64,000 nucleotides of DNA from Candidatus Brocadiaceae bacterium S225 (GTDB lineage: Bacteria; Planctomycetota; Brocadiia; Brocadiales; Scalinduaceae). The stretch covers positions 1 to 64,000 of the forward strand of contig SMSL01000005.1 in assembly GCA_007859995.1 (NCBI GenBank), given 5' to 3'. This document shows, one piece after another, positions 33,580-52,696 of this stretch. The notes beneath the pieces were generated by a model that worked only from the letters and a program-made list of their open reading frames with translations, did not search any database and was not told the origin of the DNA. The translations under genes were made by a program, and so were the position numbers. Each line of letters starts with the position of its first letter. Within the stretch, counting starts at the first letter, position 1.

Positions 33580-34848
33580 TTGACAACAAGAATTAAATTC
33601 ATACACTGTGCAGACCTCCACCTCGACAGCCCTTTTCAGGGTCTGACCACGAAAGAACCTTCACTGGCAGACAGGTTCAAACACGCCACGAATGATGCAT
33701 TTGTTAAAATAATAGACCTCTGCCTGTCAGAAAAAGTTGATTTCCTTACCATTGCCGGTGATACGTTTGATGGTGCTGACAGAAGCCTGCACGCGCAAAT
33801 CCTGCTGAGAGATCAGCTTGAGAGACTGTATAAGGCAGGCATACCCGTTATTATCGCAGCAGGAAACCACGACCCGTTATGTGACTGGCTGACAGAAATA
33901 AAATACCCTGAAAACGTACATCTGCTTGGAAGCGATAAGGTCGATAAGGTCACAATTGAAAAAAACGGCAAAGTAATTACTACAATATTTGGAATCAGTT
34001 ATAGCGTACGAGAAGTAACAGAAAACCTCTCTTTAAAATTCCTGGCGGAAGCGAAAGACACTGTTTCTATCGGTATGCTGCACGCAAACGTGGGGTCAAA
34101 GAAAGAACATGCCGTTTATTCACCCTGTACAATAAACGATCTGAAAGCAGCTAATATGGATATATGGCTGCTCGGGCACATACATACCCCGGAGGTGCTC
34201 TGTGACAACCCACTGATTCTCTATCCAGGAAATATTCAGGGCAGGCATATAAACGAAGACGGACCAAGAGGTTGTTATATAATTAAGATAGATTCCAGCC
34301 GGAAGATATCATATGAATTCAAATCCGTTCAAAATATTCTGTGGAAACAGGAAGAGATAAACGTAAAGAATATTTTGACTTCTATCGAGCTGACAGATTT
34401 ACTTTCAGACAAATGCGAGGAAGGGCTTTCAAAACTTATTAATGATGAAAAGGGAATCGTTATAAGGTGGAAACTTACCGGCTCATCTCCACTCTATCAT
34501 GAGTTAACAATGACAGATAAGGTAGTAGAAACAAAAGAGATACTGGTAGAACGTTTTTTCAACCAGACCCCATTTGTTTTTCCTGAATCAATACGACTGT
34601 CAATCAAGCCTGAGAGAAAAAGGGAAGATTATCTTAACCAGGAAAATTTCATTGGAGATTTTCTGAGACTTGCCGGAAAAGTAAAAAATGATGATCAAAT
34701 GAAGACCGCATTACTGGAGATTTTGAATCAACCGTTATCAAACAGAACAATAAGGAAATACCTTGAAGAAGTAGATGAAACAGAGTTATTAGATATCCTG
34801 GAAAATTCTGTAAATCTGGGGCTGAATCTGTTATCGGGTGGTAAGTAA
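33580..34848 (+). CDS. YhaO/SbcD-like DNA-repair metallophosphoesterase
   Basis: A 422-residue protein with a Mre11-type nuclease domain: IHCADLHLDSP, IAGDTFDGAD, AAGNHDPL, MLHANVG and LLGHIHTPE. The C-terminal 180 residues are the YhaO-type capping part. The start is TTG 33580, preceded by a GGGAG-containing region; no ATG matches the conserved I-K-F-I-H-x-A-D-x-H-L start. The partner ATPase (YhaN-like) follows, together a Mre11-Rad50-like pair acting on DNA ends. Confidence 0.88.
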   Translation: MTTRIKFIHCADLHLDSPFQGLTTKEPSLADRFKHATNDAFVKIIDLCLSEKVDFLTIAGDTFDGADRSLHAQILLRDQLERLYKAGIPVIIAAGNHDPLCDWLTEIKYPENVHLLGSDKVDKVTIEKNGKVITTIFGISYSVREVTENLSLKFLAEAKDTVSIGMLHANVGSKKEHAVYSPCTINDLKAANMDIWLLGHIHTPEVLCDNPLILYPGNIQGRHINEDGPRGCYIIKIDSSRKISYEFKSVQNILWKQEEINVKNILTSIELTDLLSDKCEEGLSKLINDEKGIVIRWKLTGSSPLYHELTMTDKVVETKEILVERFFNQTPFVFPESIRLSIKPERKREDYLNQENFIGDFLRLAGKVKNDDQMKTALLEILNQPLSNRTIRKYLEEVDETELLDILENSVNLGLNLLSGGK

Positions 34849-35103
34849 CTATCTGAATTCCCGTTTAGAAAAGGCGAAGGAAGAGGGGTTTGATTTTCAA
34901 ACTATATATAAGTTGGCAGCTTTATCACCACCCCCTTTATCCCCTCCTTCGTAAGGAGATGAATAGGAAGATCCAAATTGTTGTAATACAGCTCTAATGG
35001 CGGGAAATAGTTAGTGCATCATCCGCGATGATGCGTATTATAGCAGTGACACCCGCCTAATAGAGTGGCGGACAGGCGGTCACTGCACTCCAAAAAACAA
35101 TCT

Positions 35104-37905
35104 ATGAAATTCATAAAGGCGTACATAGACGGATACGGAAAATTTCACAACCTGGACTTTGTCTTTGAACCAGGGTTTAACCTCATCTTTGGTCCTAACG
35201 AGGCAGGAAAGACAACAATGATGTCCTTTCTCCGGACAGTATTCTTTGGATTTCCAGGAAAGAAGAATGCAGTTGACCGTTATGAACCTCTGGCAGGCGG
35301 TGTCCATGGTGGGAGGCTGGAACTGGAAACAACAGATAATAAGAAATTCTCTGTATCCATTAAACCAGGCCGGACACTTACCGGAGAAATAACTATTCTC
35401 AATGGAGACGGAACTGAGTTGTCCGGTGAAGGCGCAAAGAAAAGTTTACAGGTAGCCCTTCATGGTGTAAGTGAAAATATATACAAAACGGTATTTGCTT
35501 TCAGCCTGACGGAATTGCAGCAGTTGGACTCACTGGAAAATGACGAAATAAACGCGCATATTTATTCAGCAGGTACAGGGGTCGGAGATGTTACCCTGCC
35601 GTACATATTAAAGGCCGTTGAAGCGGAGAAAAACAAGATATATAAATATGGTGGAGCGGCTCAAATAGTACCCAAAATCACAAATGAACTTGAAAGAGTC
35701 AGGGTTGAAATATCAGATATAAAAAAAGATCAGGAAAGATATAAAGCAACAATCTCGGAAATCGAAACACTGAGACAGGAACAAACACGGCTCTTCCATG
35801 TCATTGACAACAAAAGAAGAGAAAAAGAAAGAGCCTCAAGACTGAAGGCTGGCAGAGACAATGTCAACGAACTGAATGAGATAGAAAAACAAATTACTTC
35901 TTTTCCGTTTGTAATTAAAGAATTCCCTATGAACGGCACAGGAAGGCTGGAGAAGCTTGAAGAAAAATTAACAGAAAGAAAAGAAGAACTGCAGGAATGC
36001 AGAAATAAGATTAAAAATCTTAGTATACAAACAGACTCAATACGTATTGATAGAAACATTTTAGAGTCTGAAGCCCTTATTATATCTTTGACTGAAGCCC
36101 GCTCGGCAGAAACCGAAAACATAAAAAGAGAAGATGAAATCAGATCAAATTTAACCTCACTAAAGACGGATGTGGCAAACGCAATCACTGACATCGGTAC
36201 AGATTGGAATGAAGATCGAGTAACAGCAATAGATGTGGGGAAAGAATCTTTTCAGAACACAAGGGTTTTAACTGAAGATCTTTCAAGTGCTCAGGTTAAA
36301 GTAGAGAAAGCGGAAGACGCCCTTGCACAGGAGAGAAAAAACAAGGAAGAATCCACCAAAGAGTTTCTTGTTTTCTCCCGCAAGTTTGAGAAAACCAGAA
36401 CGGTAATCCAATTCAAATTCTTAATAATCTTTGGGATGCTCATATCAATAGGACTGGGAGCATTCTGCTGGATCACCTTTAAGCCGGTTTCCGGCATAAT
36501 GGCCACAGCTTTAGGATTTGTGTCCATTGCCGCCCTTTACTACGTTTATTATAAATCAGCGAGCGATACTTTAGATGACTCAAAAGAGCAACTGTCAAAT
36601 ATCATGGAATCAAAGAGGCAGTCTATCGCGGTAGCAGAGAAAGTGCTGTCAGAGTCAAAGGATGAATATCAGCAAGTATGCAGGAAATGGCAAGACTGGC
36701 TTCAAAATAATGGGTTTAGTACGGAACTGGACAGAAACGGAATATTCGCCTTGATTGAATCGATCAGGAAGATCAAGGAACTGATAAGAAAGAGTGAAGA
36801 TGCGGAAAAAACATTGCAACAAGCCAGAGAGCGAGCTCACACATATCTTGACCGTGTAAATAATGTTTTGAAGCTATGTAATCTGGAAACGGCATCACGA
36901 GAGAACATTTTTCAGTCAATCCACAGACTAGATGATTCATTAAAAAAACAGAAAGGGTTTAAGGAGAAGAGAGAACAGCTTGAAGAAAAAACAAGGGAAC
37001 TTAAAATCCGGGAAAAGACGATTGAGGATATCATTGCCGGCATGGAAAATGATATTCATAACCTGATAGTTGAAGGTGGGGCAGGGAATGCCGAGGAATT
37101 CAGGAAGCACTCAAAGATTGTACAAAAAAGAGAGAGTTTGCTGGAACGGAAAAACAACCTTGAAATACAGCTTGCGCGGCTGATTGGCAGCAAACTGGAA
37201 ATTGAAAAGTTTAAGAAAGAGGTTGCCGATGAATCAGACCCTATGACAACGGATCAATCTATTGAGGAGCTTGAGGATGAGATTACACAACTGGAACGCA
37301 AACGTTCCGGCACCATGCAGGAGATGGGGGCAAAGACAAATCAAATATCTGAACTGGAAAAGAGTGAAAGACTGGGAGAACTAAGACTCGAAGAAGAGAA
37401 CCTCAAATCAAGATTACGGGAAGCCATTTCAGAATGGTCTGTAAATGCCTTGTGCTATACACTATTAAATAAAGCGATGACAATATATGAGAGAGAAAGA
37501 CAACCTTTTGTCCTCAAACATGCGGGGCGATACCTTGAGAAAATTACGCGGAGTCGATACGTTCGCATAATCAAGAAAGCTGATGACAACAGGCTTGTAG
37601 TCGAAACACCGGAAGGATTACAAAAAAGCGTGTCTGCACTCAGCAGGGGAACTGCTGAGCAGCTCTATCTCTCAATGAGATTGGCATTTATCAAGGAGTA
37701 TGCAAATAGAGTGGGCACGCTGCCACTGATAGTTGACGATATTCTCGTAAATTTTGATCCCCAAAGGGCGAAGACGACAATCCGATTATTGAATGAGGTG
37801 TCAAAAGAAAACCAGATCATAATGTTCACCTGCCATCCCAACACCGTGGACCTGTGCAAAAAAGAGATAAAGGATTTTAATGGACCTGTTAAGATAGATA
37901 TTTAA
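35104..37905 (+). CDS. YhaN/SbcC-like AAA ATPase with long coiled coil
   Basis: A 933-residue Rad50-type ATPase. N-terminal Walker A in LIFGPNEAGKTTMM; long coiled coils at about 190-400 and 550-780; a double hydrophobic hairpin near 430-480 (FLIIFGMLISIGLGAFCWIT, then a second segment) that is seen in YhaN-type proteins and suggests membrane attachment; C-terminal ABC signature SALSRGTAEQLYLSM and Walker B LIVDDILVNFD. ATG 35104 (MKFIKAYIDGYGKFHN) matches the family; a GTG at 35065 would only add an unrelated leader. The 216-base gap after yhaO has no recognised feature. Confidence 0.88.
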   Translation: MKFIKAYIDGYGKFHNLDFVFEPGFNLIFGPNEAGKTTMMSFLRTVFFGFPGKKNAVDRYEPLAGGVHGGRLELETTDNKKFSVSIKPGRTLTGEITILNGDGTELSGEGAKKSLQVALHGVSENIYKTVFAFSLTELQQLDSLENDEINAHIYSAGTGVGDVTLPYILKAVEAEKNKIYKYGGAAQIVPKITNELERVRVEISDIKKDQERYKATISEIETLRQEQTRLFHVIDNKRREKERASRLKAGRDNVNELNEIEKQITSFPFVIKEFPMNGTGRLEKLEEKLTERKEELQECRNKIKNLSIQTDSIRIDRNILESEALIISLTEARSAETENIKREDEIRSNLTSLKTDVANAITDIGTDWNEDRVTAIDVGKESFQNTRVLTEDLSSAQVKVEKAEDALAQERKNKEESTKEFLVFSRKFEKTRTVIQFKFLIIFGMLISIGLGAFCWITFKPVSGIMATALGFVSIAALYYVYYKSASDTLDDSKEQLSNIMESKRQSIAVAEKVLSESKDEYQQVCRKWQDWLQNNGFSTELDRNGIFALIESIRKIKELIRKSEDAEKTLQQARERAHTYLDRVNNVLKLCNLETASRENIFQSIHRLDDSLKKQKGFKEKREQLEEKTRELKIREKTIEDIIAGMENDIHNLIVEGGAGNAEEFRKHSKIVQKRESLLERKNNLEIQLARLIGSKLEIEKFKKEVADESDPMTTDQSIEELEDEITQLERKRSGTMQEMGAKTNQISELEKSERLGELRLEEENLKSRLREAISEWSVNALCYTLLNKAMTIYERERQPFVLKHAGRYLEKITRSRYVRIIKKADDNRLVVETPEGLQKSVSALSRGTAEQLYLSMRLAFIKEYANRVGTLPLIVDDILVNFDPQRAKTTIRLLNEVSKENQIIMFTCHPNTVDLCKKEIKDFNGPVKIDI

Positions 37906-38111
37906 ATAAATCCATTCCTATACTTCTCATTCAGATCTCCTGCGTAGATATAAAGCGCTTAACGCCCCACCTCACAAAAACCCCACCTGTTGGCCGGTAT
38001 GAAGTCTTATTTATCGTACCGTTCCCCCTTATTTATTATTAGGAACCTTTTAATGGGAATTTATGTTATATTGGTACATAGTTTTTTAATAATTTTTGAG
38101 GGAGATGGAAA

Positions 38112-38549
38112 ATGGTAGGAAAATGTAAGTCATTGGTAATATTTATCGCAGTAGTAGGTGTTGCTTGCATAGTACTTAATTTTGCAGGAATAGATGCACA
38201 GGTTTACGCGCAGGGTGCGGCAAACGTCAAATCAAGTGAGTGTCCGTTGGATAAAGGTGAAAAATGTTCAAGTGACAATGATTGCAGCAAGAAGCCTAAA
38301 TGTGACAAGGGCGGATGTGACAACATTGATAAAATGATGGATCTTACCCGGTGCGCGAAAAAGGAATTGCTTAAGGAGAAGATTAAGGCGAATCTTGAGA
38401 AAAAAATGGGAACTAAGCTAGATAAAATTGCTGATCTTCTTGTTGATGCAATGCTTAACGAATACAAAGCATCAATGGGATGTAAAACACAAAGAGCCAC
38501 ACTTGAAAATAATATAAGGGAAGTATTCAGCGGGAAAGGTTCTCAGTGA
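38112..38549 (+). CDS. exported cysteine-rich hypothetical protein
   Basis: A 145-residue protein with a signal peptide (SLVIFIAVVGVACIVLNFAG ... VYA-QG). The mature part begins with a Cys-rich, charged stretch (seven cysteines between residues 44 and 69, e.g. CSSDNDCSKKPKCDK) followed by a helical tail rich in lysine (KKELLKEKIKANLEKKMG). No family is recognised. The spacing does not match ferredoxin or heme motifs; the cysteines may bind metal or form disulfides. A GAGGGAGA ribosome-binding site precedes the ATG. Confidence 0.65.
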   Translation: MVGKCKSLVIFIAVVGVACIVLNFAGIDAQVYAQGAANVKSSECPLDKGEKCSSDNDCSKKPKCDKGGCDNIDKMMDLTRCAKKELLKEKIKANLEKKMGTKLDKIADLLVDAMLNEYKASMGCKTQRATLENNIREVFSGKGSQ

Positions 38550-38792
38550 CATTTGGTATACGCATATTCGCAGCCAGCCTGTCACTCCGGATGGTTTAGC
38601 TATAATGCAAAGCAAAATTACCAAAAAGCAGAACCGGATATCGTGATTGCCCAGGAGCAGCTTTGCGGGCTATCTCTATCAAGACCAGATTGCCTGCCCG
38701 TATGTATTGTTAGATACGGGCAGGTTTACTGCCAAGGCCCAATACCATTTCCTCAATAACCACGAAACCTTCTGACTCCTCTGAACACGCAT

Positions 38793-38831
38793 AAAAAAAG
38801 TCCCCAATACCCTGTTACGAATATTGAGGAC
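38793..38831 (-). terminator. terminator of cold-shock gene
   Basis: Arms GTCCCCAATA (38800-38809) and TATTGAGGAC (38822-38831) pair with one mismatch. On the minus strand the stem is followed by seven T (A run at 38793-38799). It lies 90 bases after the csp stop. The rest of 38550-38921 holds nothing else that I can support. Confidence 0.75.
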
Positions 38832-38921
38832 ACTATTATCACAGTCATATTTTTTAAAACCACTCTATACTTTTATACCGTCTATACAGTAAAATATATG
38901 AGCACTCTTTGTAAAATATAC

Positions 38922-39122
38922 TTATAATTTAACAACGTTTGCTGCCTTGCTACCCTTTTCACCTTCTTCAATGTCAAACTCTACCTGATCTCCTTCTGAA
39001 AGGCTTTTAAAACCTTCAGACTGGATTGCGGTATGGTGAACAAAGACATCGTCGCCATTCTCCGGTGTAATAAAGCCAAAACCTTTTGAATCGTTAAACC
39101 ACTTAACTGTTCCAGTCGCCAT
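38922..39122 (-). CDS. cspA: cold-shock domain protein
   Basis: A 66-residue single cold-shock domain: [20 protein letters not shown] with RNP1 KGFGFI and RNP2 DVFVHH, ending KAANVVKL. It binds single-stranded nucleic acid and acts as an RNA chaperone. ATG 39122 matches the family start; longer in-frame extension upstream lies across the leader hairpin and is rejected. A GGGAG (on the minus strand at about 39136-39132) gives a ribosome-binding site. Confidence 0.95.
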
Positions 39123-39150
39123 AATAAAAACCACTCCCTTCAATAAAAAA

Positions 39151-39188
39151 ACAAAAAAAAAAGCGGCAAGATTGGTAAACCTTGCCGC
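39151..39188 (-). terminator. intrinsic terminator/attenuator in csp leader
   Basis: Perfect 8-base stem (39163-39170 with 39181-39188), 10-base loop, and on the minus strand a run of ten T (39153-39162). It lies 30-65 bases upstream of the csp start, on the same strand. No minus-strand gene lies upstream for about 8 kb, so it does not end a neighbouring gene. It either attenuates csp transcription or ends a small RNA. The gap 39189-39550 holds a weak promoter-like pair (TTGGTT-17-TATATG on the minus strand near 39205-39235) and nothing else. Confidence 0.75.
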
Positions 39189-39550
39189 CTTACTTATGTA
39201 TTTAACATATAATCTGACGCTACAGTACAACCAATACTACCAGCTAATACGAATTAGTCATAAAGGTATCAAACATTATTTATAAAAGCAAGAGAAAATA
39301 AAATAAATAAAATTATTATATTTCCCGGTTTTTCTATGATGTATGAATTACGATTTGATACTTCAAGTTGTCTGATATTTTTCCTGTTGATTTTGCTAAA
39401 CAACATCACTATTATTTACTCGAAAGCTTTAGTATTAACATAAGACCTGACAAAATAATGGCTCATTTTACACTAACAGGTGTATTGTCATCTTTAAATA
39501 CGGGCTCTATCTCCGGAATTTTCTGTAATTTCAAGTGAAGGATTTGGAAT

Positions 39551-39991
39551 ATGAATATTTTAGTTGCTATCGATTTATCCAGTGCCTCACAAAAGATATT
39601 AGATAAAACAAAAACGCTCGCGTTAGCATTGCCTGCTAAAGTATGCTTACTCCATGTTATTGAAGGTGACCCTGATTTTCTGGATGATGAGCCTGATTCA
39701 CAAGACACAAGTGCCCATGGCCAACAGGAATTTCCCCTGGAGTATAAGGCCTTACTGAAAGAGGTAGATGGACTCCGACAATCAGGGATAGACACAAAGG
39801 GACTTCTCACGCAAGGTTCCGTTGTCGATGTTATCCTTCAGAAATCAAAGCAACTGGAAATTGACATAATTATTGTTGGCACCCACGGACATGGAGGTGT
39901 CCATCACATGATATTTGGCAGCGTCAGTGAAGGAGTGTTGCGAAACACCTCCTGCCCTGTTCTTGTGATACCTACACTTGATCGAGAGTAA
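39551..39991 (+). CDS. universal stress protein (UspA family)
   Basis: A 146-residue Usp fold: MNILVAIDLSSASQKILDKT start, VCLLHVIEGDP, and the ATP-binding loop GTHGHGGVHHMIFGSVSEGV with RNTSCPVLVIP at the end. The G-x2-G-x9-G-(S/T) pattern suggests an ATP-binding type. An AAGGA precedes the ATG. The gene stands alone between the csp leader and the accessory region. Confidence 0.92.
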   Translation: MNILVAIDLSSASQKILDKTKTLALALPAKVCLLHVIEGDPDFLDDEPDSQDTSAHGQQEFPLEYKALLKEVDGLRQSGIDTKGLLTQGSVVDVILQKSKQLEIDIIIVGTHGHGGVHHMIFGSVSEGVLRNTSCPVLVIPTLDRE

Positions 39992-40055
39992 TTATCCACC
40001 TCAAACCCGCAGAGAACTATTTTTTTGGAACCTGATCAGGCCTCGAATTTAAAAT

Positions 40056-40505
40056 ATGGAAATAACCCCCTTTCAACGGTTCATATTGGTAAACCTGTAC
40101 AATCTCTGGAAAGAGTACGGCACCAGTAAAGTAAAGACCTTAGATGCACTGATAGAAGAGTACGATTATAAAGAAAAAAATATCAGAAAACCGATGAAGG
40201 CCCTTATCTCGGCAGGGCTTGTTGATTCTGATTCGTACGGTGCATGGTTAACGAAAAAGGGTATTCGTCAAATGGAAGTTGCCAGTAAGTCCGACGATAG
40301 CACCGTTACCCGGGAAGACAGGGCGCCGGTTAACATTACAATAAATTTTCTGAAAAACTTTGAACAGGCGATCGGCAAATCCGAACTTCAGTCACCTGAA
40401 AGGGAAGTGTGGCTGGACGGCATAACTCAGATCGGTCAAAACCCCTTGCTCCTTAGAACATTAGAGACTGCTCTTAAGGCGACAATAGAAAATAAACCTT
40501 CTTAA
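40056..40505 (+). CDS. winged-helix-like hypothetical protein beside KAP NTPase
   Basis: A 149-residue protein. Residues 1-70 look like a winged helix (TPFQRFILVNLYNLWKEYGT, then KNIRKPMKALISAGLVDSDS, AWLTKKGIRQME). Residues 90-149 form a separate helical segment (INFLKNFEQAIGKSELQSPE). It ends 63 bases before the KAP NTPase gene on the same strand and could be its regulator or adaptor. No family is recognised. The start ATG 40056 has no clear ribosome-binding site. Confidence 0.6.
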   Translation: MEITPFQRFILVNLYNLWKEYGTSKVKTLDALIEEYDYKEKNIRKPMKALISAGLVDSDSYGAWLTKKGIRQMEVASKSDDSTVTREDRAPVNITINFLKNFEQAIGKSELQSPEREVWLDGITQIGQNPLLLRTLETALKATIENKPS

Positions 40506-40990
40506 CTTTCCAGGAATTGCAACCGGACGCACATCCTGGATATTTGTATTTAATTCCGGGCTACCTGAATGAAAAAATACCGTTTAAACATCAAATCCGA
40601 TATTTACTGTGATGAAGACCAGTTAGGGTTCGGCAAATACATTGAAACTCTTAATACAATGTTTACCGATAGGGACTTCAAAACACCTTTCTGCATTGGT
40701 ATTTTCGGAAAGTGGGGAAGTGGAAAGACAAGTTTTATGCATCTTCTTGAGAACAGGCTTTTAAAGGATAATAACGAACCACGTATTATTCCGGTCTGGT
40801 TTAATCCCTGGAGGTATGAAAAAGAAGAATACCTGATTATTCCTTTTTTAAAGACCATTGAACGTGGAATCAGGAAATATGAAGAAGAAAATAAAACTAA
40901 AGGAGACAAACTGTTAAAGGTTGCTACAAAGATAGGAGATGTTTCTGCCGCTTTCGCTTACGGGATAACGGCTGATGCTAAGCTGGGAGG

Positions 40991-41086
40991 GTTTGGACTA
41001 AGGCTAGATGCTTCAAAAATCATGTTGCATTAGAATGCCAAAGTACAATCGTGTAAGTTTGGACTAAGGCTAGATGCTTCAAAAAT
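40991..41086 (+). repeat. 30-bp direct repeats bracketing the amber stop in KAP gene
   Basis: The 30 bases starting gtttggactaaggctagatg occur at 40991-41020 and 41057-41086. The 36-base spacer holds the TAG. Removing one repeat plus the spacer (66 bases, 22 codons) restores GFGLRLDASKMAKREEEL with no stop. Confidence 0.9.
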
Positions 41087-42656
41087 GGCAAAAAGGGAAG
41101 AAGAGTTGTCCTCCAGAAGAATGAAAGAATTAAGGAACCTTTCAGAAGAATACTGCTCTATGTACTATGAAATTACAAAGGAATTACAAAAGGCAGTTGA
41201 TGAAAAGCTCTTTAGAATAGTTGTCTTTGTAGATGACCTGGATAGATGTCTGCCCGATAAGGCAGTAGAGCTTCTTGAGGCAATAAAGCTCTTTCTCGAT
41301 ATAGAAGGATATCTCTTTGTCATTGGTGTTGACCGCGAAGTGGCAAAGAAGGGGATTTCATATCGATACAGATTTTTTGAACACAAGGAGGAAAAAGAGA
41401 AAGAGAACCTCATTATCTCACCGGAAGACTATCTGGACAAGATGATCCAGCTGCCTCTTGAATTACCGACTATCGAGCATGGGAGGAAGAAAACATTTAT
41501 TGAATCCTTAATGGGAAATTCAGAAGATTTCAAAGAACATTCTGACGTGATAATTGACGCAGGAATTGGAGAAAACCCAAGATCTCTAAAACGTTTTATC
41601 AACCTGCTCGCCTTTACGGTAAATCTTGCGAAAACGTTGAAGGAAAATATTGTAGATGATAAAGTTGATCAGGAGGAAACCAAAGAACATAAAAAACTCT
41701 TAAGAAAATATTTTATGCCTCTATTATATATGAAATGGACAATTATTGTGTTTCATTATCCGAAGATACATAATGACATTAAGGGAAATCCAAAAAGACT
41801 GATTGAGATACAAAGTGCGGCAATAAATGACGACATTTCACCGGAGACAGAAGATAAAAAGACAGAGAAAAAGGACATGCAGATAGACGAAAGGCTGAAA
41901 AAGGTACTTGCAAAGTGAACCGCGTTTCCCGATGACGACTGGTTGATAGAGCGGTTTATTCATTTGACAGAATCAACGGTTATCAGCGATAAAGACAAAT
42001 CAGGAACTGTAGGTTACACCCAAAGTTTCAAACTTGGCGAAACGGTATTGATCCCTAAAGGTATATTCCTTTATGGTGAGGATAAGACAAAAAACGATAG
42101 TATAAAGAACGACTACAAAATTGATGTGTATCCGGTTACCAATAAACAGTACAAAGAATTTATGGACGAAACAGACCATGAAGTGCCGTATAGTGATAAT
42201 GAAGATGAGAAACCGTACTGCTGGAACAAAAATAATCGAACATATCCTGAAGGATTGGGAAACCACCCGGTAGTACTTGTATCCCATAACGACGCTATAA
42301 ATTTTTGCAGGTGGAGGTCTGAGAAAGAAGGAATAGAAGTCAGACTTCCAACAGAATATGAGTGGGAAAAAGCAGCAAGAGGCAGAGATGGACGAGAATA
42401 TCCCTGGGGCAATGAATTTGATTTTAATAAGCTAAATTGTGCTGATTATCACGTAAAAAAGGAATTAAAGGATTATGATGAATGGGATAAAGTGTTTAAC
42501 AAAGAATTTTATAAAAATAATAAAATGAAGGCACTGACAACAGAAGTCGGCAGATTTACTTATGGCGCAAGCCAATTCGGCTGCCATGATGTGGCCGGTA
42601 ATGTCTGGGAATGGACGAGTAGCCCCTACGACAAGAGCAAAGACACCTTTGTTTTG

Positions 42657-42773
42657 CGCGGCGGCTCGTGGTACTACAGTAGTAGCGGTTGCCGGTGCGC
42701 GTATCGCAACGACGACGTACCGGGTAGCAGGAACTACAACATAGGTTTTCGTTGTGCCAGGACTCTTACCCTT
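42657..42773 (+). other. variable-region-like 3' end of FGE domain
   Basis: The codons for RGGSWYYSSSGCRCAYRNDD and the following VPGSRNYNIGFRCARTL use mostly N-N-C/T codons (TAC, AGT, AGC, GAC, AAC) at the positions where DGR variable proteins carry mutated AAC/AAT codons. Base composition is markedly more GC-rich than the flanks. T-rich TTACCC repeats follow the stop (about 42766-42795). No reverse transcriptase or template repeat is found in the window. Confidence 0.55.
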
Positions 42774-42878
42774 TAGGTTTTTTACCCTTTTACCCTCTGT
42801 TTTTATTTTTTAAAACTTTTAGTTTTTTTGTTTTACCGACGAAGTCGGTCGAAATTCATTTTGAAAAACGTGCGAATA

Positions 42879-42905
42879 ATAGGGACTGTTCGGGGAACAG
42901 TCCCT
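42879..42905. repeat. perfect 12-bp inverted repeat (REP-like hairpin)
   Basis: TAGGGACTGTTC and GAACAGTCCCTA with a 3-base loop. It lies in the 352-base gap between the FGE stop and the RAYT gene, which also holds a small ACCGAC/GTCGGT hairpin at about 42834 and the REP arm at 43023. Confidence 0.7.
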
Positions 42906-43022
42906 ACATTTTCTGATCAAGGATTTTATTTTGTAGGATCAAATATAAACGTCCCGTATTACACGTTTCCCGAAACTGGCCTTTTGTAACGATTGTATCA
43001 TTATAATAGGCATTCTGACAAA

Positions 43023-43047
43023 GTCCGTTTGGGAAACGGACCCTACA
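43023..43047. repeat. left REP-like hairpin of RAYT element
   Basis: GTCCGTTT-ggg-AAACGGAC hairpin (43023-43041) followed by CCTACA. Its reverse complement, with two changes, is found at 43619-43643 on the other side of the transposase gene. Confidence 0.7.
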
Positions 43048-43128
43048 GGATGTTTGCTCACTTGTCATTTGTCGAGCAAGGAAACGGACACTGCATTTAA
43101 TATTCGTAATTTTGACATAAATTGTGGT

Positions 43129-43623
43129 ATGAATAGTAAACCAAAACGTAGAAAGAATATCAGACTTAAAGGTTTTGATTACACAGGAAACGCTTATGTT
43201 TATTTCATAACTATTTGCACTCATGATAAACAACAATATTTTCGTAATGCTGAAATTGCCAAAATAATCAAAGATGAAATTGAATTCAGAATGATAAAGG
43301 AAATACAATTGCTCTGTTACTGTATCATGCCTGATCATTTACATATGTTGTTATCATTAACTGAGGACTATACAAAGAAAGGTGAAGGCAAATCTGCAGG
43401 GAAAGGTACCCTGCAGAATTGGGTTTCGGCATACAAGCGTTATACATCAAGGATTGCAAATCAATTATTTAAAATTAAACCGTTATGGCAGAAAAATTTC
43501 CACGATCATGTTGTAAGAAAAGAAGAGTCGTTGTTAAAAATAGCAGCATATATTGTTGATAATCCGGTAAGAAAAGGGATGGTATCAGAATGGGAAGAGT
43601 ATCTATACAGCAGGATTATGTAG
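43129..43623 (+). CDS. REP-associated tyrosine transposase (RAYT)
   Basis: A 164-residue single-domain Y1 transposase: MNSKPKRRKNIRLKGFDYTG, ITICTHDKQQYF, the HUH motif in CIMPDHLHMLLSL, and the candidate catalytic tyrosine in AAYIVDNPVRKG. It cuts single-stranded DNA at REP hairpins. ATG 43129 begins the conserved N terminus; the in-frame ATG at 43054 lies in the REP region and is less likely. The gene is intact and is flanked by inverted REP-like hairpins. A TTGACA at 43112 lies just upstream. Confidence 0.9.
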   Translation: MNSKPKRRKNIRLKGFDYTGNAYVYFITICTHDKQQYFRNAEIAKIIKDEIEFRMIKEIQLLCYCIMPDHLHMLLSLTEDYTKKGEGKSAGKGTLQNWVSAYKRYTSRIANQLFKIKPLWQKNFHDHVVRKEESLLKIAAYIVDNPVRKGMVSEWEEYLYSRIM

Positions 43624-43643
43624 GGCCCGTTTCCCAAACGGGC
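43619..43643. repeat. right REP-like hairpin of RAYT element
   Basis: TGTAGG followed by GCCCGTTT-ccc-AAACGGGC, overlapping the transposase stop codon. It is the inverted partner of 43023-43047 (23 of 25 bases). Confidence 0.7.
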
Positions 43644-43778
43644 ATTATTTTAGCTGTCGTATTATAAAGGAAATTCTGATAAGGGCTATTCAGGAAAACG
43701 GGATCGACAAACCTTGAATGTATAGGAATTTCAGAGTATAGTTTTTGTCGCAATAGCGACTTCACTTGTATTAAAAAA

Positions 43779-44384
43779 ATGACTGAAATCAAAGAACTAA
43801 TACGCAGTTTTTGCGAGAAACATTTAAATGATGAATTAATGGGCTATGCCTTAAAACTATGCGATGCCCTTGGCAGAAAAAAGAAAATTAACCTTTCTCG
43901 CGGCAAAAAGGAGATATGGGCAGCTTCAATTATTTGTGCGATAGCACGTCTTAATTTTTTATTCGACAAGAAAAATGAAAACTACATAGCGGCTGATACT
44001 ATATGCAGTTATTTTAGCACCTCCAGGTCAACGATAGGAAACAAAGCAACTCAAATCGAAGATGCCTGTAATCTGACTATTGGGGCCGAAGGATATTGCA
44101 GTAAACATGTCACGGACTCACTCACTTTTTATAAAACTCCGGAAGGTTTTATCGTCCCAAAAAATATGATTGAGGATCTGGAAATAGTTTATGAAATTGC
44201 GGAAGGAGAAGATGCAAAGGAGCTTGAAAGATTTGTTGAAAATCAAAGAAGGATGAAAGAACAGGAAATAAAAAGGAAACAGGAACGAAGGGCAGAGATA
44301 AACAGAGAAATTGCGGAAAAAAAGAGAAAAAACAGAAAAAACAAGGACTACAAAAACAGGCAACTAAAACTGTTTGGTGATTGA
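43779..44384 (+). CDS. DUF6398-like hypothetical protein
   Basis: A 201-residue protein. The first 110 residues match the DUF6398 pattern (ELIRSFCEKHLNDELMGYAL; LSRGKKEIWAASIICAIARL; NFLFDK; a helix-turn-helix-like ICSYFSTSRSTIGNKATQIE). The C terminus is a long charged helix (RRMKEQEIKRKQERRAEINR). The HTH-like part may bind DNA; function is unknown. A GTCGC-AATA-GCGAC hairpin lies 20 bases upstream of the start. It is convergent with the Ntn-hydrolase pseudogene. Confidence 0.65.
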   Translation: MTEIKELIRSFCEKHLNDELMGYALKLCDALGRKKKINLSRGKKEIWAASIICAIARLNFLFDKKNENYIAADTICSYFSTSRSTIGNKATQIEDACNLTIGAEGYCSKHVTDSLTFYKTPEGFIVPKNMIEDLEIVYEIAEGEDAKELERFVENQRRMKEQEIKRKQERRAEINREIAEKKRKNRKNKDYKNRQLKLFGD

Positions 44385-44388
44385 TAGG

Positions 44389-44888
44389 TTATATGAAAAA
44401 TAATTGCGTTCTCATAAATTGATTTTTAACAAATGAGTACTTCTCGTGTAATACGGGCCACAGTCTTTTGAAAAACAGAAAGAGGTCCTGTTTCGTTGAT
44501 AACCTGACCGGTTTTTTACCTTTCAGATAATCATCCAGAATATTGTCATACAGACCCCAGCCAGCACCGGCAACCATCGCGTTACCTATACGCCTCAACC
44601 TTAGATTCATTCAGATTATCGACACCTGCCATATTAGAATCAAAGCACTGGGGAGCATTCCCATTTTATTGTATATAAAAGAGGTGGATTCACTTCGTTT
44701 AATCCACCCTACCTCGCACCATACGTTTGCTTATTTGTAAGGGTGGATTAAGGCCGGAGGCCGAATCCACGTATTCATGGGTATAATACCTGATTTACAA
44801 AAAATTGGGAATGCTCCCAAAGCACTGTAAGGTGTCTGCGCCAATAACTATTTTATTGTCTTTTCTTAACTACCACTGCAATAGACAT
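44389..44888 (-). pseudogene. proteasome-like Ntn hydrolase, split by MITE and frameshifts
   Basis: From ATG 44888 (GGGAG upstream) the minus strand reads MSIAVVVKK, then one base over, DNKIVIGADTL. Here the 168-base MITE interrupts. After it the frame continues QCFDSNMAGVDNLNESKVEA, then after a second frame change RRIGNAMVAGAGWGLYDNIL and DDYL. This matches the start of bacterial proteasome-beta-like Ntn hydrolases (I-A-x-V-x-K-x-x-x-x-x-I-G-A-D-T). The C-terminal half of the fold is missing or unrecognisable. The MITE sits inside a 9-base duplication and removing it rejoins TLQCFD in frame. Confidence 0.65.
44651..44818 (+). mobile_element. 168-bp MITE, copy 1
   Basis: Terminal inverted repeats GGGAGCATTCCCA and TGGGAATGCTCCC bound a 168-base noncoding element. 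Flanking bases 44642-44650 and 44819-44827 are both aaagcactg, a 9-base target-site duplication. It is the inverted copy of 58901-59068 with only about three differences. The inside contains nested hairpins (gtggattcacttcgtttaatccacc). No transposase in the window carries these ends. Confidence 0.92.
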
Positions 44889-45137
44889 ATTTTTCTCCCG
44901 GAAAACCTGAAATATTTATAATAATCGATCTTACGTGCACCAATCTGTGTTTAAATTAGTGCCCTACGGACGGGCTTTTAGTAAAAACATGCTCACGCAA
45001 AGCCGCCTCTATCAGTTTGGCAGTCTAAACATAAACATTTTTATTAATAGCCTTGATATGATAGAATGCTTCCTTCTTTATTTTATTTTTTACTGAAAAT
45101 CAAATTTCTATCGCTCAATATATATATAAAAAAAACC

Positions 45138-47099
45138 ATGAAAAAATATTTCAGCACATGCCCCAGAGATTGTTACGATACCTGTGCCATGATCACAACG
45201 GTTGAGGACGGTAAGGCAGTCAAGCTTCAGGGCAACCCAAAACACCCTATAACGCGGGGATTCCTATGCTGGAAGATACAAAACGCTTTAAAGTTTGTGT
45301 ATTCACCGGAACGTCTGAAGCGTCCTCTCAAAAGAGTAGGAAAGAAAGGGACTGACAATTTTAAAGAGATTACGTGGAAAGAGGCTTACAGGGAAATCGC
45401 ACACCAGATGGAAAATGTTCAATCCAGACACGGGAGGGAAGCAATATTGCCGTTTCACTATTATGGCCATATGGGCCTGCTTAATAAGCAATTGCCACAG
45501 CGAATCTTCACAACACTGGGCACCAGTAATTGCTCACCCACAGTATGTTCAAACGCGGGACGAACAGCCATGCAGTATGTCTATGGCGGATTCTGGGGTC
45601 TTGATCCGGAAGAGATACCCTCTTCCAAACTCATTATCTTCTGGGGATTGAACGGGCCATGGAGCAACCTGCACGGATACAACATGGTTAAGGAAGCCGT
45701 ACGTAACGGAGCAAAGTTCTACGTCATTGATCCCTTGAAAACAGGCCAACTAGGCAAGCACCTTGCCATTAAGCCAAACACTGATGGTGTCCTTGCACTG
45801 GGAATTGCAAATTATCTGATAACAAGTAATATGTACGACAAGGAACATGTTGAAAAGTATACGCACGGTTTTGAACAATTCAGGGAAGTAGCTGAGGATT
45901 TTGACCTTGAAAGGGTTTCAAGGATAACAGGCTTATCTGTAGACGATATTAGAGAATTAGCAGAAGATCTGTATCGGATAAGACCAAGCTTCATTCACCT
46001 GGGATTCGGTATCCAGAAACATCTTTATGGTGGTGAGGCTGCCAGGACTATTGCACTCCTCCCGCCTCTTGTTGGCGGATTCAGGGTACACTACAGCAAT
46101 ACTGACAGAGAAATAGACCTTGCCTTTCTCCAGGGCAAACACCTTATCAGTCAGGAATTCCCGAAAACTCAGAAGATGCGTAATATGGCACAACTTGGCA
46201 AGTTACTTGAGGCGGAAGAGATAAAATTCCTTTTCGTCTTCAATACAAATCCCCTGGTAAATCTCCCAAACCAGGCACTGGTAAAGAAGGGTATGGAGAG
46301 TGAAGATCTCTTTACGGTGGTACATGATATCTTTTTAAATGACACCTGCAGCTACGCGGACATTGTCCTGCCTGCCCCAAGCTTCCTGGAATCATTTGAT
46401 ATCCATATATGTTATTACCACAACTATCTCTCCATAAATCAGAAGGCAATTGAACCTCTTGGCGAGTCAAAACCGAACTATCAGGTCTTTAAGGAACTTT
46501 CTGCGGCTCTTGGCCTGAATACGCAAGATCTCTTCCCCCCGGAACGTGAAGTGACCGAAGAGTTCCTTAGCAGAAGTAAGGCCGTAGATTTTGCCCTGAA
46601 AGATCTGGAGCAGGATGGTTTCTGCAAGATGAAGCCCAGGCCGCAGGATGAATATCTCACTCCGTCCGGCAAGATTGAAATGTACTCTCAACTGGCGGAA
46701 AAATCCAATATTTCGCCTCTACCCGGTTACTATGAAGAGGAAAAGAGCAGGTATCCTCTCCAGTTTCTAACGGTAAATCATAAACGTATCACGCGTTCTC
46801 AATTCCACAACATCTGGCAAAAAGAGATTGAACCAATCGTCCTGATTAATAATGAAGACGCAAAGAAGAAAGGTATAAAAGAAGGGGATTGGGTAGTATT
46901 AAAAAATGACCAGGATACTTTGAACATGAAGGCACGCCCTACCAGGGATATTAAACAGGGAGTTACTTTAGCCTATGGAGGATTGTGGTCTAAGCTGTGT
47001 GAAGGAAAAGGCGCAAACACCCTTACCCCGGATATTGTCCAGGATTTTGGAGGCAACGCCACTTATAATTCTACCTACATTGAGATTGAAAAGCTGTAA
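45138..47099 (+). CDS. molybdopterin-dependent oxidoreductase
   Basis: A 653-residue catalytic subunit of the DMSO-reductase (MopB) superfamily. Iron-sulfur ligands C8, C12, C16 and a fourth in RGFLCWK (C-x3-C-x3-C-x27-C) bind one [4Fe-4S]. Further blocks: AYREIAHQMENVQSRHGREA, CSNAGRTAMQYVYGGFWGLD, LIIFWGLNGPWSN, CSYADIVLPAPSFLE, and the C-terminal cofactor domain (LTVNHKRITRSQFHN; VLINNEDAKKKGI; DWVVLKND). No Tat signal is visible, so it is probably cytoplasmic. ATG 45138 is chosen; the in-frame ATG 45066 adds a hydrophobic stretch unlike a Tat signal. The substrate is unknown. The 320-base leader after the MITE has nothing else. Confidence 0.88.
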   Translation: MKKYFSTCPRDCYDTCAMITTVEDGKAVKLQGNPKHPITRGFLCWKIQNALKFVYSPERLKRPLKRVGKKGTDNFKEITWKEAYREIAHQMENVQSRHGREAILPFHYYGHMGLLNKQLPQRIFTTLGTSNCSPTVCSNAGRTAMQYVYGGFWGLDPEEIPSSKLIIFWGLNGPWSNLHGYNMVKEAVRNGAKFYVIDPLKTGQLGKHLAIKPNTDGVLALGIANYLITSNMYDKEHVEKYTHGFEQFREVAEDFDLERVSRITGLSVDDIRELAEDLYRIRPSFIHLGFGIQKHLYGGEAARTIALLPPLVGGFRVHYSNTDREIDLAFLQGKHLISQEFPKTQKMRNMAQLGKLLEAEEIKFLFVFNTNPLVNLPNQALVKKGMESEDLFTVVHDIFLNDTCSYADIVLPAPSFLESFDIHICYYHNYLSINQKAIEPLGESKPNYQVFKELSAALGLNTQDLFPPEREVTEEFLSRSKAVDFALKDLEQDGFCKMKPRPQDEYLTPSGKIEMYSQLAEKSNISPLPGYYEEEKSRYPLQFLTVNHKRITRSQFHNIWQKEIEPIVLINNEDAKKKGIKEGDWVVLKNDQDTLNMKARPTRDIKQGVTLAYGGLWSKLCEGKGANTLTPDIVQDFGGNATYNSTYIEIEKL

Positions 47100-47158
47100 T
47101 GTGGTATGTATAAACCTGATTCCCACATGGAAACGAAAGAAGAGTGAAGACAGGATAT

Positions 47159-48217
47159 TTAAAATCCAGTAAGATTGGTCGATGATTTATTGGACAGGTC
47201 TGGTTTTCTTTTCCCCCTGGCCATTTTCTCGAACTGATTAAAGTGTTCCGGTTCTCCAATCACTGCGACCTTGTCTCCCTCCTCTATCAGGGTATGAGCA
47301 CGGGGGTTAAATAATATTTTCCCATTTTTTTTCTTCAGAGCCACGATTACAACCCAGTTTTTTGCTCTAATGTCTGCATCTTTGATGGTTTTGCCCGCCA
47401 ATGCAGACGCCTCTTCTACCACAACCTCTTCTATCTGAATTTCCATATTACCGGCTTTTGCCGTTAACTCCAGAAAGTCTACTACCGTTGGCTTAAGTAT
47501 GGTATGAGCTATCCTGAGGCCTCCAATATGGTATGGAGAGACGACCTTGTCCGCACCCGCTCTTGTAAGTTTGTAATCCGCACCCTCTTCATTCGCCCTT
47601 GCTACGATAAAGAGGTCATTATTAAGCCCTCTTGCGCTGAGCACAACATAGAGATTCTGTGCATCGGAATCAAGGACCGATATAAGCCCCTTCGCTTTTT
47701 CTATACCTACATCTCTAAGGAGCTCGTCTCTAGTCGCATCTCCATAAGTGATTATGACATCTTCATCTAGATCGAGTTCCTGAGGCTCTTTTTCTACAAT
47801 AACAAAAGGGATCCCCTTTCGTTTTAATTCGGTACATATAACCTTCCCCATACGGCCGTAACCGCAGACAATGTAGTGATTTTCCAACGACTCTAACACC
47901 TTTTTCAATTTTCTTCTCCCAAATACATCCTGAAATTCACCTTCAAATATAGCCTTTAGCCCGTAATTTAATGCATAAGCCACAACACCCAGACTAAAAA
48001 ATATCAGGCCAATAGTAAAGGCCTTTCCCTCTTTTGAAAGTGGTTCTATTTCATGAAACCCTACCGTCGAGAGGGTGATAACGGTCATGTACAGAGAATC
48101 AAAGAGCTGCCATCCCTCAATAAAATAGTAACCTGCAGTACCTGACAATAAAACAATAATGAAAAGAACCAGGGAAAGAATTAACTTCCTTCTAAATGTG
48201 GTTGCACTGTTTTGCAT
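47159..48217 (-). CDS. MthK-like potassium channel with RCK domain
   Basis: A 352-residue protein: two transmembrane helices with pore loop MTVITLSTVGFHEIEPLS (filter TVGF), then a TrkA-N domain starting IVCGYGRMGKVICTEL and a TrkA-C domain ending about residue 335. This is the 2TM ligand-gated K+ channel layout. The filter has TVGFHE in place of TVGYGD, a variant common in bacterial channels. It is convergent with the molybdopterin gene, and lies downstream of aconitase on the same strand with a 125-base gap. Confidence 0.9.
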   Translation of the reverse strand: MQNSATTFRRKLILSLVLFIIVLLSGTAGYYFIEGWQLFDSLYMTVITLSTVGFHEIEPLSKEGKAFTIGLIFFSLGVVAYALNYGLKAIFEGEFQDVFGRRKLKKVLESLENHYIVCGYGRMGKVICTELKRKGIPFVIVEKEPQELDLDEDVIITYGDATRDELLRDVGIEKAKGLISVLDSDAQNLYVVLSARGLNNDLFIVARANEEGADYKLTRAGADKVVSPYHIGGLRIAHTILKPTVVDFLELTAKAGNMEIQIEEVVVEEASALAGKTIKDADIRAKNWVVIVALKKKNGKILFNPRAHTLIEEGDKVAVIGEPEHFNQFEKMARGKRKPDLSNKSSTNLTGF

Positions 48218-48342
48218 TAAGGACAGAAAATTATGGAATTATATCTTATATCAAAAAAAGGCACAGACCGTTGATATTATTTTTGGCTTATTCGCCAGAA
48301 AACTACTACAATCCGGATCATAAGTCAAGAATTTCCCTGAAG

Positions 48343-50604
48343 TTACCCAGCCAAATCCTTAGCTATTTTATTCAGGGCAGAACCTGCTCTGAACCATCCC
48401 AGCTGTTGTTCTGACATAGTATGTTTCGTTTCTATGTTCTCTTCGGTTCCATCGCTGTGCCTGATCTTTACGAGAACATTTTTGCCAGGAGCTAAACTGT
48501 CCAAACCGGTAATCGACACCTTGTCATCCTCGCAGAATCTTTCATAGTCCTCCGGATCAACAAATGTCAGGGGAACGATGCCCTGTTTCTTTAAATTAGT
48601 CTCATGGATTCGGGCGAATGAACGGACGATTACCGCAACGGCACCAAGAAACCGTGGAGACATGGCTGCATGCTCACGCGAAGAGCCTTCTCCATAGTTT
48701 TCATCACCTACAACAACCCATGAAACTCCACGCTCCCTGTAGTCACGGGCGATGTCTGAAAACCTTATACCCCTCTTACCGGTGAAAAGGTTTTTACCTG
48801 TACCGACTGAACCATCAAACGCGTTTACGGCGCCAAAAAAGGTGTTATCAGATATATGGTCCAGATGTCCCCTGAACTTCAGCCACGGCCCCGCCGGAGA
48901 AATATGATCGGTTGTACATTTCCCGGAAGCTTTTAACAACAAAGGAACATCGATAAAATCTTTACCACACCATGGTGCAAAAGGGGCCAATACCTGAAGA
49001 CGTTCTGATTCGGGATTGATAACAATCTCTACCTTAGAACCATCTTCCACTGGCGGCACATAGCCTTTGCCGCAACCGGTAAATCCGGCAGATGGCAGTT
49101 CTTCCGATGATGGCTCTCCCAGCATCACTTCCTGCCCGGAAACAGTTTTCAATTTATCTTGCAATGGATTGAAGGAGAGAGAACCTGAGAAGGCGTATGC
49201 CGTTACAATTTCAGGAGAGCCGATAAATGAAAGCGTCTCTGTGTTGCCATCATTACGGGCACGAAAATTTCTATTATAAGAATTAACAATGGTATTTTTC
49301 TCGCCTTTTTTGATATCGGTACGTTTCCACTGTCCTATACACGGACCGCAAGCATTGGCCAATACGGTTGCACCGGCATCAGTCAGGGCTTTCATCTGTC
49401 CATCACGTTTAATAGTATCTTCTATCAGGTTTGATCCCGGTGTCACCAGTAGTGGTATAGCCAGCTTCAAGCCCTTTGCAATAGCATCCCTTGCCACGGC
49501 AGCAGCACGCCCCATGTCCTCATATGAAGAGTTTGTACAGGAGCCGATAAGTGCAAATTTAATATTATCAGGATAATCTTCCTTCAATATTTCGTCTTTG
49601 AAGTCTGATAGAGAACGTACCTTATCAGGTGTGTGAGGACCGCATACCTGCGGCTCAAGTTCTGACAAGTTTATCTCAATAATCTTATCATAATACTTTT
49701 CAGGATCTGCATATACCTCGTCATCAGCCCTGAAACACTCTGAATATTCCTCCGCTAAAGCAGCAATGTCAGACCTGTCTGTTGCTCTCAGATAATCCGA
49801 CATCCGCGAATCGAAAGGAAATGTAGATGTTGTGGCGCCGTGTTCCGCCCCCATATTACATATAGTGGCCTTACCCGTGCATGAAATTGAAGCCGCACCA
49901 TCCCCAAAATATTCGACGACATAACCAGTTCCTCCTTTGACAGTAAGCTCTTTCATTACCCTCAGGATAACGTCCTTGGAAGATGACCAGCCGGATAATT
50001 TACCGGTTAGTTTTATACCTATAACACCGGGCCACTTCAGACCGAAAGGCAGACCTGCCATCACATCTACAGCGTCCGCCCCGCCCACACCGATTGCCAG
50101 CATACCCAACCCCCCCCCATTGGGAGTGTGTGAGTCGGTACCGATAAGTAGACCACCCGGAAAGGCATAATTCTCTAAAACTACCTGATGAATGATCCCT
50201 GCCCCCGGATTCCAGAAACCCATACTATATTTTTTAGCGGCAGAGGAGAGAAAATCATAAACCTCCTTATTTGTCATTTTTGCGGCAGGCAGATCATCTT
50301 CCACGCCCTGATGTGCCAGTATCAGGTGATCACAATGGACGGTAGTCGGTACTTGCACAGATGGTATACCTGATGACATAAATTGTAATATCGCCATCTG
50401 GGCGGTCGCGTCCTGCATAGCAACCCTATCCGGATACAGATCTACATTAGATTCCTTTCGAGTATATAGTTTTATATCCTCCAGCTTCATATGAGAATAA
50501 AGGGTTTTTTCCGTGAGGGTCAGACCCCTCGCCAGAACTTCTCGTGCTTTCTGATGTTTTTCTTCTAAATTCTTATATAATTTTCTGCATGTCTCAATTG
50601 TCAT
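48343..50604 (-). CDS. acn: aconitate hydratase, mitochondrial type
   Basis: A 753-residue aconitase. Iron-sulfur cysteines are in IGSCTNSSYEDMG and ANACGPCIGQW; other blocks are IGTDSHTPNGGGLGMLAIGV, GGADAVDVMAG and the swivel-domain VVVGDENYGEGSSREHAAMS. The length and order match the mitochondrial/AcnA-like single polypeptide. It isomerises citrate and isocitrate and, with sucCD-kor in the window, supplies the TCA-type cycle. An AGGGGGAA-like ribosome-binding site lies before ATG 50604. Confidence 0.95.
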   Translation of the reverse strand: MTIETCRKLYKNLEEKHQKAREVLARGLTLTEKTLYSHMKLEDIKLYTRKESNVDLYPDRVAMQDATAQMAILQFMSSGIPSVQVPTTVHCDHLILAHQGVEDDLPAAKMTNKEVYDFLSSAAKKYSMGFWNPGAGIIHQVVLENYAFPGGLLIGTDSHTPNGGGLGMLAIGVGGADAVDVMAGLPFGLKWPGVIGIKLTGKLSGWSSSKDVILRVMKELTVKGGTGYVVEYFGDGAASISCTGKATICNMGAEHGATTSTFPFDSRMSDYLRATDRSDIAALAEEYSECFRADDEVYADPEKYYDKIIEINLSELEPQVCGPHTPDKVRSLSDFKDEILKEDYPDNIKFALIGSCTNSSYEDMGRAAAVARDAIAKGLKLAIPLLVTPGSNLIEDTIKRDGQMKALTDAGATVLANACGPCIGQWKRTDIKKGEKNTIVNSYNRNFRARNDGNTETLSFIGSPEIVTAYAFSGSLSFNPLQDKLKTVSGQEVMLGEPSSEELPSAGFTGCGKGYVPPVEDGSKVEIVINPESERLQVLAPFAPWCGKDFIDVPLLLKASGKCTTDHISPAGPWLKFRGHLDHISDNTFFGAVNAFDGSVGTGKNLFTGKRGIRFSDIARDYRERGVSWVVVGDENYGEGSSREHAAMSPRFLGAVAVIVRSFARIHETNLKKQGIVPLTFVDPEDYERFCEDDKVSITGLDSLAPGKNVLVKIRHSDGTEENIETKHTMSEQQLGWFRAGSALNKIAKDLAG

Positions 50605-50832
50605 ATTTTCCCCCTTGTAATGCTCATTTCTTATCTATATATTATAGCGGCAGGCAAATTTGAAATGCCTACCAGCCTGACCAATCAATTCGGGCAGGAA
50701 GTTTAAAGTGATCTAAAGCTTCATGAAAATGAGGCTTTTACAAAACTAATCCTAAGCCTAACTCAGTTTTAATCCGTTTGCAAATAAACAGTGTAATAGC
50801 ATAATACCATAATATGGCACAAGTGCAACCCT

Positions 50833-50851
50833 GTCTGACATCTTGTCAGAC
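50833..50851. promoter_or_regulatory. 8-bp inverted repeat in divergent region
   Basis: GTCTGACA-tct-TGTCAGAC in the 333-base divergent gap between aconitase and the MBL-fold gene. There is no T run, so it is not a terminator. It could be an operator for either gene; nothing else stands out in the gap. Confidence 0.4.
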
Positions 50852-50937
50852 GGGCGAAAACAACAGGATCCATCACTTTACAGGTAAAAAACAACTAAGT
50901 TCAGCTTAGTCAGAAAATAGACGAAAGGAATTGATTT

Positions 50938-51780: not shown

Positions 51781-51854
51781 ATTTTTCCTGACATGACAAA
51801 CAGTATATGTTTCACATTATAACCTGGCAAACATGTCAACAAAGAGAGGTTGCT

Positions 51855-52604: not shown

Positions 52605-52696
52605 TCTTATATTATTATTTTTTCATTTACATTTCTTTCAATCATTATGTATAAAAAAAACTTCATATTTAGCACAAGTCGATAAGGAGGCATTGG

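Follow-up and report, generated by a model that had tools for sequence, protein, structure and literature searches.

The question raised by this locus is whether the 3′ end of an FGE-sulfatase gene on a contig of Candidatus Brocadiaceae bacterium S225 is, or was, a target of a diversity-generating retroelement (DGR), as a sequence-only reading had proposed, and where the mutator that acted on it would lie. The window is the whole 64,000-nt stretch of DNA analysed, and the genes and repeats of the locus lie on its + strand. A 149-aa gene without a Pfam match (40056–40505) is followed by the N-terminal half (40569–41033; PF07693, 3.1e-16) and the C-terminal half (41085–41918; PF07693, 4.1e-20) of a KAP NTPase, and then by an FGE-sulfatase domain of C-type-lectin type (41943–42776; PF03781, 1e-51) with the variable repeat (VR) at its C terminus. 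The last three segments share one frame and constitute a broken KAP-NTPase-FGE gene. The PF03781 match runs nearly to the end of the frame, an assignment made from sequence only, and the peptide RGGSWYYSSSGCRCAYRNDDVPGSRNYNIGFRCARTLTL closes the open frame at 42776, as had been read. The VR (42648–42766) is defined as the segment that matches a template repeat (TR) in G003, a genome of the same genus. Its GC content is 55%, compared with 39% in 41943–42647 and 40% in the whole window, which bears out the GC-rich local composition noted earlier; in a scan of the window at 10-nt steps, only 0.5% of 119-nt segments reach such a value. The VR occupies the position of a DGR target repeat, the 3′ end of a gene whose C-type-lectin/FGE fold is assigned by homology.

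A near copy of the VR, differing from it mostly at adenines and lying beside reverse transcriptase (RT) and avd genes, had been predicted for the same genome; such a copy exists, but on G003:C140. A search with the VR covered 147 genomes, the own one among them; 19 matched at E ≤ 1e-4, 11 of them with a match confined to the conserved stretch upstream of the VR. The candidates scored were 5 of 6 in the own genome, 4 of 4 in G002, 5 of 9 in G003, 5 of 8 in G004, 5 of 7 in G015, 5 of 9 in G032, 5 of 13 in G044 and 5 of 8 in G048. Because the best four or five candidates were scored per genome, and because the two VRs of G044 were not among the matches listed though its template was, the absence of a template from other genomes is weak evidence. 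The two matches in G003 are separated by 3 kb. The first is the C-terminal end of a NACHT-FGE protein of 929 aa and the second is the template, located between the NACHT-FGE gene and the gene of a 353-aa RVT_1 protein, after which comes a 121-aa bAvd protein. In G044, too, RVT_1 and bAvd adjoin the TR, so that in both genomes a DGR-type RT and an avd-like gene accompany the template in one cassette.

The window VR and the G003 template are 87% identical over 119 nt. Template adenines are changed at 12/34 sites and other bases at 3/84 (Fisher 1.5e-5, 118 sites); put differently, 12 of the 15 differences fall on the 34 adenines among 119 sites (hypergeometric 1.4e-5). This template, with its adenine-biased differences, belongs to the relative G003 and not to the own assembly. 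The changes at template adenines, eight to G and four to T, are confined to 42672–42735. The codons at variable positions had been read as limited to TAC, AGT, AGC, GAC and AAC, which is broadly right and yet too narrow, as the codons that differ from the G003 template include GGT (42687, 42723) and GTA (42717), and AGT at 42681 is the same as in the template. Among the three non-adenine differences, 42689 is a third codon position, 42761 is the IMH base, and at 42727 the window and G004 both have G, and the template of these two may therefore have had A there; two of the three require drift or a slightly different template. The IMH-like constant 3′ end of the VR, GGTTTTCGTTGTGCCAGGACTC (42744–42765), carries G at 42761 (position 115), where the three templates seen have C or T, and no pair compared has the same IMH/IMH* base in TR and VR.

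An orthologous comparison gives the same adenine bias. Contig C10 of G004 is syntenic with 33959–52621 of the window, at approximately 80–87% identity over the main blocks, and retains the small upstream gene and the FGE domain with its VR. With sites classed by the G003 template, the window and G004 differ at 19/34 template-A sites, 14/85 other VR sites and 129/696 sites of the FGE upstream of the VR; at codon positions 1 and 2 the corresponding counts are 18/32, 3/48 and 61/464. Homologs changing equally often at non-adenine sites, which would have told against a DGR, are hence not what is seen here (18/32 against 3/48). Taken with the template, RT and avd genes of G003, this A-site bias supports the proposal, and the gene that carries 42648–42766 almost certainly is or was a DGR target. 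The same alignment bears on a neighbouring feature, a pair of 170-nt inverted copies at 44650–44819 and 58900–59069 that are 98% alike; since in G004 the sequences on either side of the first copy adjoin with a 10-nt overlap, as at an empty site, these copies represent a short MITE-like insertion.

The relatives show the same pattern to different degrees. G044 has a target, avd, RT, TR and KAP-FGE target in a row, and its two VRs differ from its TR at 17/29 and 20/29 adenines and at 1/89 non-adenine sites each; the alignment of G044_VR1 contains a one-base gap in the VR, at which the reading frame shifts, and gapped columns are excluded from these counts. The VR of the NACHT-FGE target in G003 is equally clean against its own TR (A 21/34, non-A 1/84). 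The VR of G032 against its own template (A 19/32, non-A 5/86) and those of G002, G004 and G015 against the G003 template (non-A changes 7/84, 15/84 and 12/84, respectively) are less clean. In G032 the template and target occur without RT or avd in the 19-kb stretch examined. The repeat there is an orphan template, found with the conserved downstream stretch at reverse-strand position 7739 of G032:C1 (L046), approximately 350 nt before the target gene.

Downstream of the window VR, 70 nt past the IMH, begins a hairpin (ACCGACGAAGTCGGT; 42835–42849, +) with stem arms ACCGAC and GTCGGT around a GAA loop, and its exact pattern, ACCGNCGAAGNCGGT, occurs once in the 2.96-Mb assembly. Versions of it, defined as matches to ACCGNCGAAGNCGGT or to the G003 form with at most three substitutions and folded with RNA parameters, follow nine of ten related VRs at +27 to +85, so that a downstream inverted repeat accompanies the VR here as it does most of the related VRs. 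One of the nine, in G015 C5, gives no fold, and no version follows the VR of G004. As a control, both strands were scanned for the loose form of the hairpin: the window contains one, at 42835–42849, and 75.8 kb of sequence from elsewhere in the own genome contain one more. The window hairpin departs from the version shared by G003 and G048 in one paired change, A-T for C-G. In BPP-1, a structure 3′ of the VR is described as needed for efficient homing (PMC3240598), and the window hairpin may have a like function.

The VR and its downstream elements are preserved in a gene that is itself interrupted twice, a point on which the sequence-only reading is silent. The N-terminal KAP half stops at a TAG brought in by a 66-nt in-frame insertion (40991–41086), which consists of a 30-nt direct repeat (40991–41020 and 41057–41086) around 36 nt, and the C-terminal half is ended by an in-frame TGA (41916–41918), so that the window holds no intact target. 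The insertion is missing from the G015 homologue. Its origin as an off-target CRISPR spacer integration is unsupported: the CRISPR repeat on contig C17 of the own assembly is 37 nt long compared with the 30-nt duplication, no further copy of the 36-nt insert occurs in the own genome at three mismatches or fewer, and a 25-nt piece of it has no exact match in viral_contigs. Reading of the TGA as Trp is rejected, as homologues have Gly (G044, G013) or Arg (G015) at that site. The KAP-FGE fusion is unbroken in G048 and G013 and broken in the window, G004, G015 and G044; in G004 the break, a deletion of approximately 1.07 kb of KAP, arose independently of those in the window.

Despite these breaks, the FGE domain does not evolve neutrally. 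Against G004, dN/dS is 0.28 for the FGE upstream of the VR, 0.46 for the VR and 0.17 for the 149-aa gene, with 0.04–0.18 for four neighbouring genes and the N-terminal KAP piece; against G015 it is 0.14 for the FGE, 0.23 for the small upstream gene and 0.63 for the VR. Constraint on the FGE is thus relaxed at most, with 0.28 against G004 and a value that is not raised, 0.14, against G015. The 149-aa gene is a probable operon partner, as in G004 and G015 too it lies directly 5′ of the KAP-FGE gene. Both KAP halves match the PADLOC models QatA, PifA and PDC-S20, which belong to KAP-type, anti-phage systems; neither the FGE part nor the 149-aa gene has a match among the PADLOC anti-phage models. 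A search of viral_contigs with the FGE protein found no relative, and a 22-nt piece of the template matched one contig there, the FGE-like gene of which carries a different tail. Five FGE loci of other named groups were found in genome_contigs at 33–46% identity, in a set that may exclude records close to the window, and Rfam gave nothing on three loci.

The claim that template and RT lie elsewhere in the same genome did not hold in the assembly at hand, which is 79% complete. A DNA search returned no second copy of the VR and so no FGE template (8 of 8 candidates). Searching the own genome with the G003 cassette (40 of 49 candidates) returned, besides the window VR itself (1.5e-35), a diverged stretch of an RT on contig C3 at 70% (2.6e-6) and nine further, weak matches, all at E 0.016 or worse. 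Three RT matches exist in the assembly, namely one in a DGR on C3, one beside genes that presumably are cas1 and cas2, and one fragment. The CRISPR locus on C17 (G000:C17; L001, L020) has a 37-nt repeat and an RT gene with a seemingly split frame, among genes that presumably resemble RAMP genes, cas1 and cas2. The C3 DGR, the sole DGR recognised in the assembly, comprises avd, a template of another type and an RT that is fused to a MutS_I domain and contains an in-frame TGA (G000:C3:228354-232628 and 246798-246930; L002, L016, L100). It serves two VRs of its own, both on C3, with changes at 17/41 and 20/41 adenines and at 6/89 non-adenine sites each; the C-terminal tails of these two targets are, we assume, PEP-CTERM-like.

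These observations are best explained by a gene that is probably a relic in this genome, formerly diversified and of a defence-type sensor kind, given that the assembly contains neither a cognate template nor a cognate RT and that the gene is interrupted twice. By analogy with known DGRs, a DGR close to the present one of G003, with avd, RT and template repeat, would have been at work in an ancestor; the template RNA would have been copied into cDNA with its adenines misread, and this cDNA would have replaced the 3′ end of the FGE domain. Going by the families concerned, such replacement may have retargeted the ligand-binding face of a KAP-NTPase-FGE sensor that was probably of the anti-phage or conflict type. 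Counting against a relic are the intact hairpin and IMH in the window, the open FGE frame and the non-neutral dN/dS of the FGE.

A less likely though serious reading of the same features is that the gene is still an active target. Its template and RT would then be found on a plasmid or phage, or in the fifth of the genome that the assembly lacks, and the interruptions would be strain-level or assembly effects. At 79% completeness, a cognate cassette may lie in the missing part. The VR, IMH and hairpin are intact, only two non-adenine differences from the G003 template remain besides the IMH base, and the supply of DGR components in trans is proposed in PMC10907252. Set against this is the state of the relatives. 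The G003 RT was searched in 59 genomes (own included) and matched in 19 at E ≤ 1e-20, the closest besides G003 being that of G044 (70%); no match at that cut-off was obtained in G002, G004, G015 or G032, and the best match in G048 is only 26%. G002 (95% complete) and G004 (93%) therefore have VRs without a G003-type RT match at E ≤ 1e-20, and no template is among the matches listed for either (5 of 8 candidates scored in G004). The two breaks in the window and the independent one in G004 also argue against continued activity.

It is very improbable that the resident C3 DGR diversifies the window VR in trans. In its favour, no other DGR was recognised in the assembly, and PMC10907252 proposes trans action on remote targets, but the C3 template matches the window VR at 35/78 non-A sites at the best ungapped offset, compared with 82/85 for the G003 template, its own VRs lie elsewhere on C3, and its RT frame contains a TGA; the poor template fit largely refutes it as the mutator here. 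Next to nothing speaks for an ordinary FGE C terminus in which the segment RGGSW...GFRCA forms a loop under weaker constraint, rich in Asn, Tyr and Ser codons. Ordinary FGE-family proteins do have the RGGSW and GFRCA motifs, but the A-biased template, the RT and avd cassette, the IMH mismatch and, in the G004 test, an excess of changes at codon positions 1 and 2 of template-A sites over upstream and non-A VR sites refute this reading.

With a relic as the preferred reading, the relatives place the window within a wider pattern. Targets without a cognate cassette look common here, among draft genomes of which the best four or five candidates each were scored, and VRs with both IMH and hairpin persist in some genomes that lack a cognate RT. 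G002 holds a DGR-type target of a different kind, DUF4062-NACHT-FGE (G002:C23, L049, 6248–9265; a 1006-aa frame), and the fact that it adjoins the same ATPase gene as the window neighbourhood hints at a shared insertion site. We tentatively suggest that, in this lineage, DGR cassettes come and go while the diversified NTPase-FGE sensors stay, such that past hypermutation may become fixed into a heritable receptor set and old targets may be reused when a cassette returns. By itself, the locus is one more DGR-diversified NTPase-FGE sensor, and DGR-diversified NACHT/KAP sensors are already published. What it adds is a matched series within one genus and its order, in which some cassettes occur together with their targets, an orthologous target and others have no cognate cassette, and the breaks in the targets differ. 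Such a series permits the fate of a hypermutated sensor to be measured after loss of its mutator, for example as the rate of non-adenine drift once template copying stops.

Among the closest known systems are the clade 5D DGRs of multicellular bacteria, for which NACHT, nSTAND1 and KAP NTPase targets fused to CLec are described (PMC10907252, 2024). The likeness is one of architecture, an FGE/CLec variable domain fused to an NTPase; unlike the systems described there, the window assembly is without a cognate RT and template and its KAP-FGE gene is interrupted. That source also discusses incomplete loci and remote targets and proposes a role as antigen sensors for NTPase-CLec proteins, KAP among them; the window KAP-FGE protein may have played the same role. 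The target site resembles that of BPP-1 (PMC3240598, 2011) in that a constant VR end is followed by an inverted repeat whose stem varies and whose loop is largely kept. The phage hairpins of this type are reported with stems of 7–10 bp and 4-nt GRNA loops at 4–34 bp from the VR, compared with a 6-bp stem and a 3-nt GAA loop at 70 nt past the IMH in the window (27–85 nt in relatives). The diversifying ternary conflict systems (PMC7159879, 2020) likewise have a hypervariable, DGR-tied FGE/FGS domain in an NTP-dependent conflict setting. As described there, the FGS domain is mostly on the vWA component of a VMAP-ternary system, whereas in the window it is fused to a KAP NTPase and accompanied by a small upstream gene.
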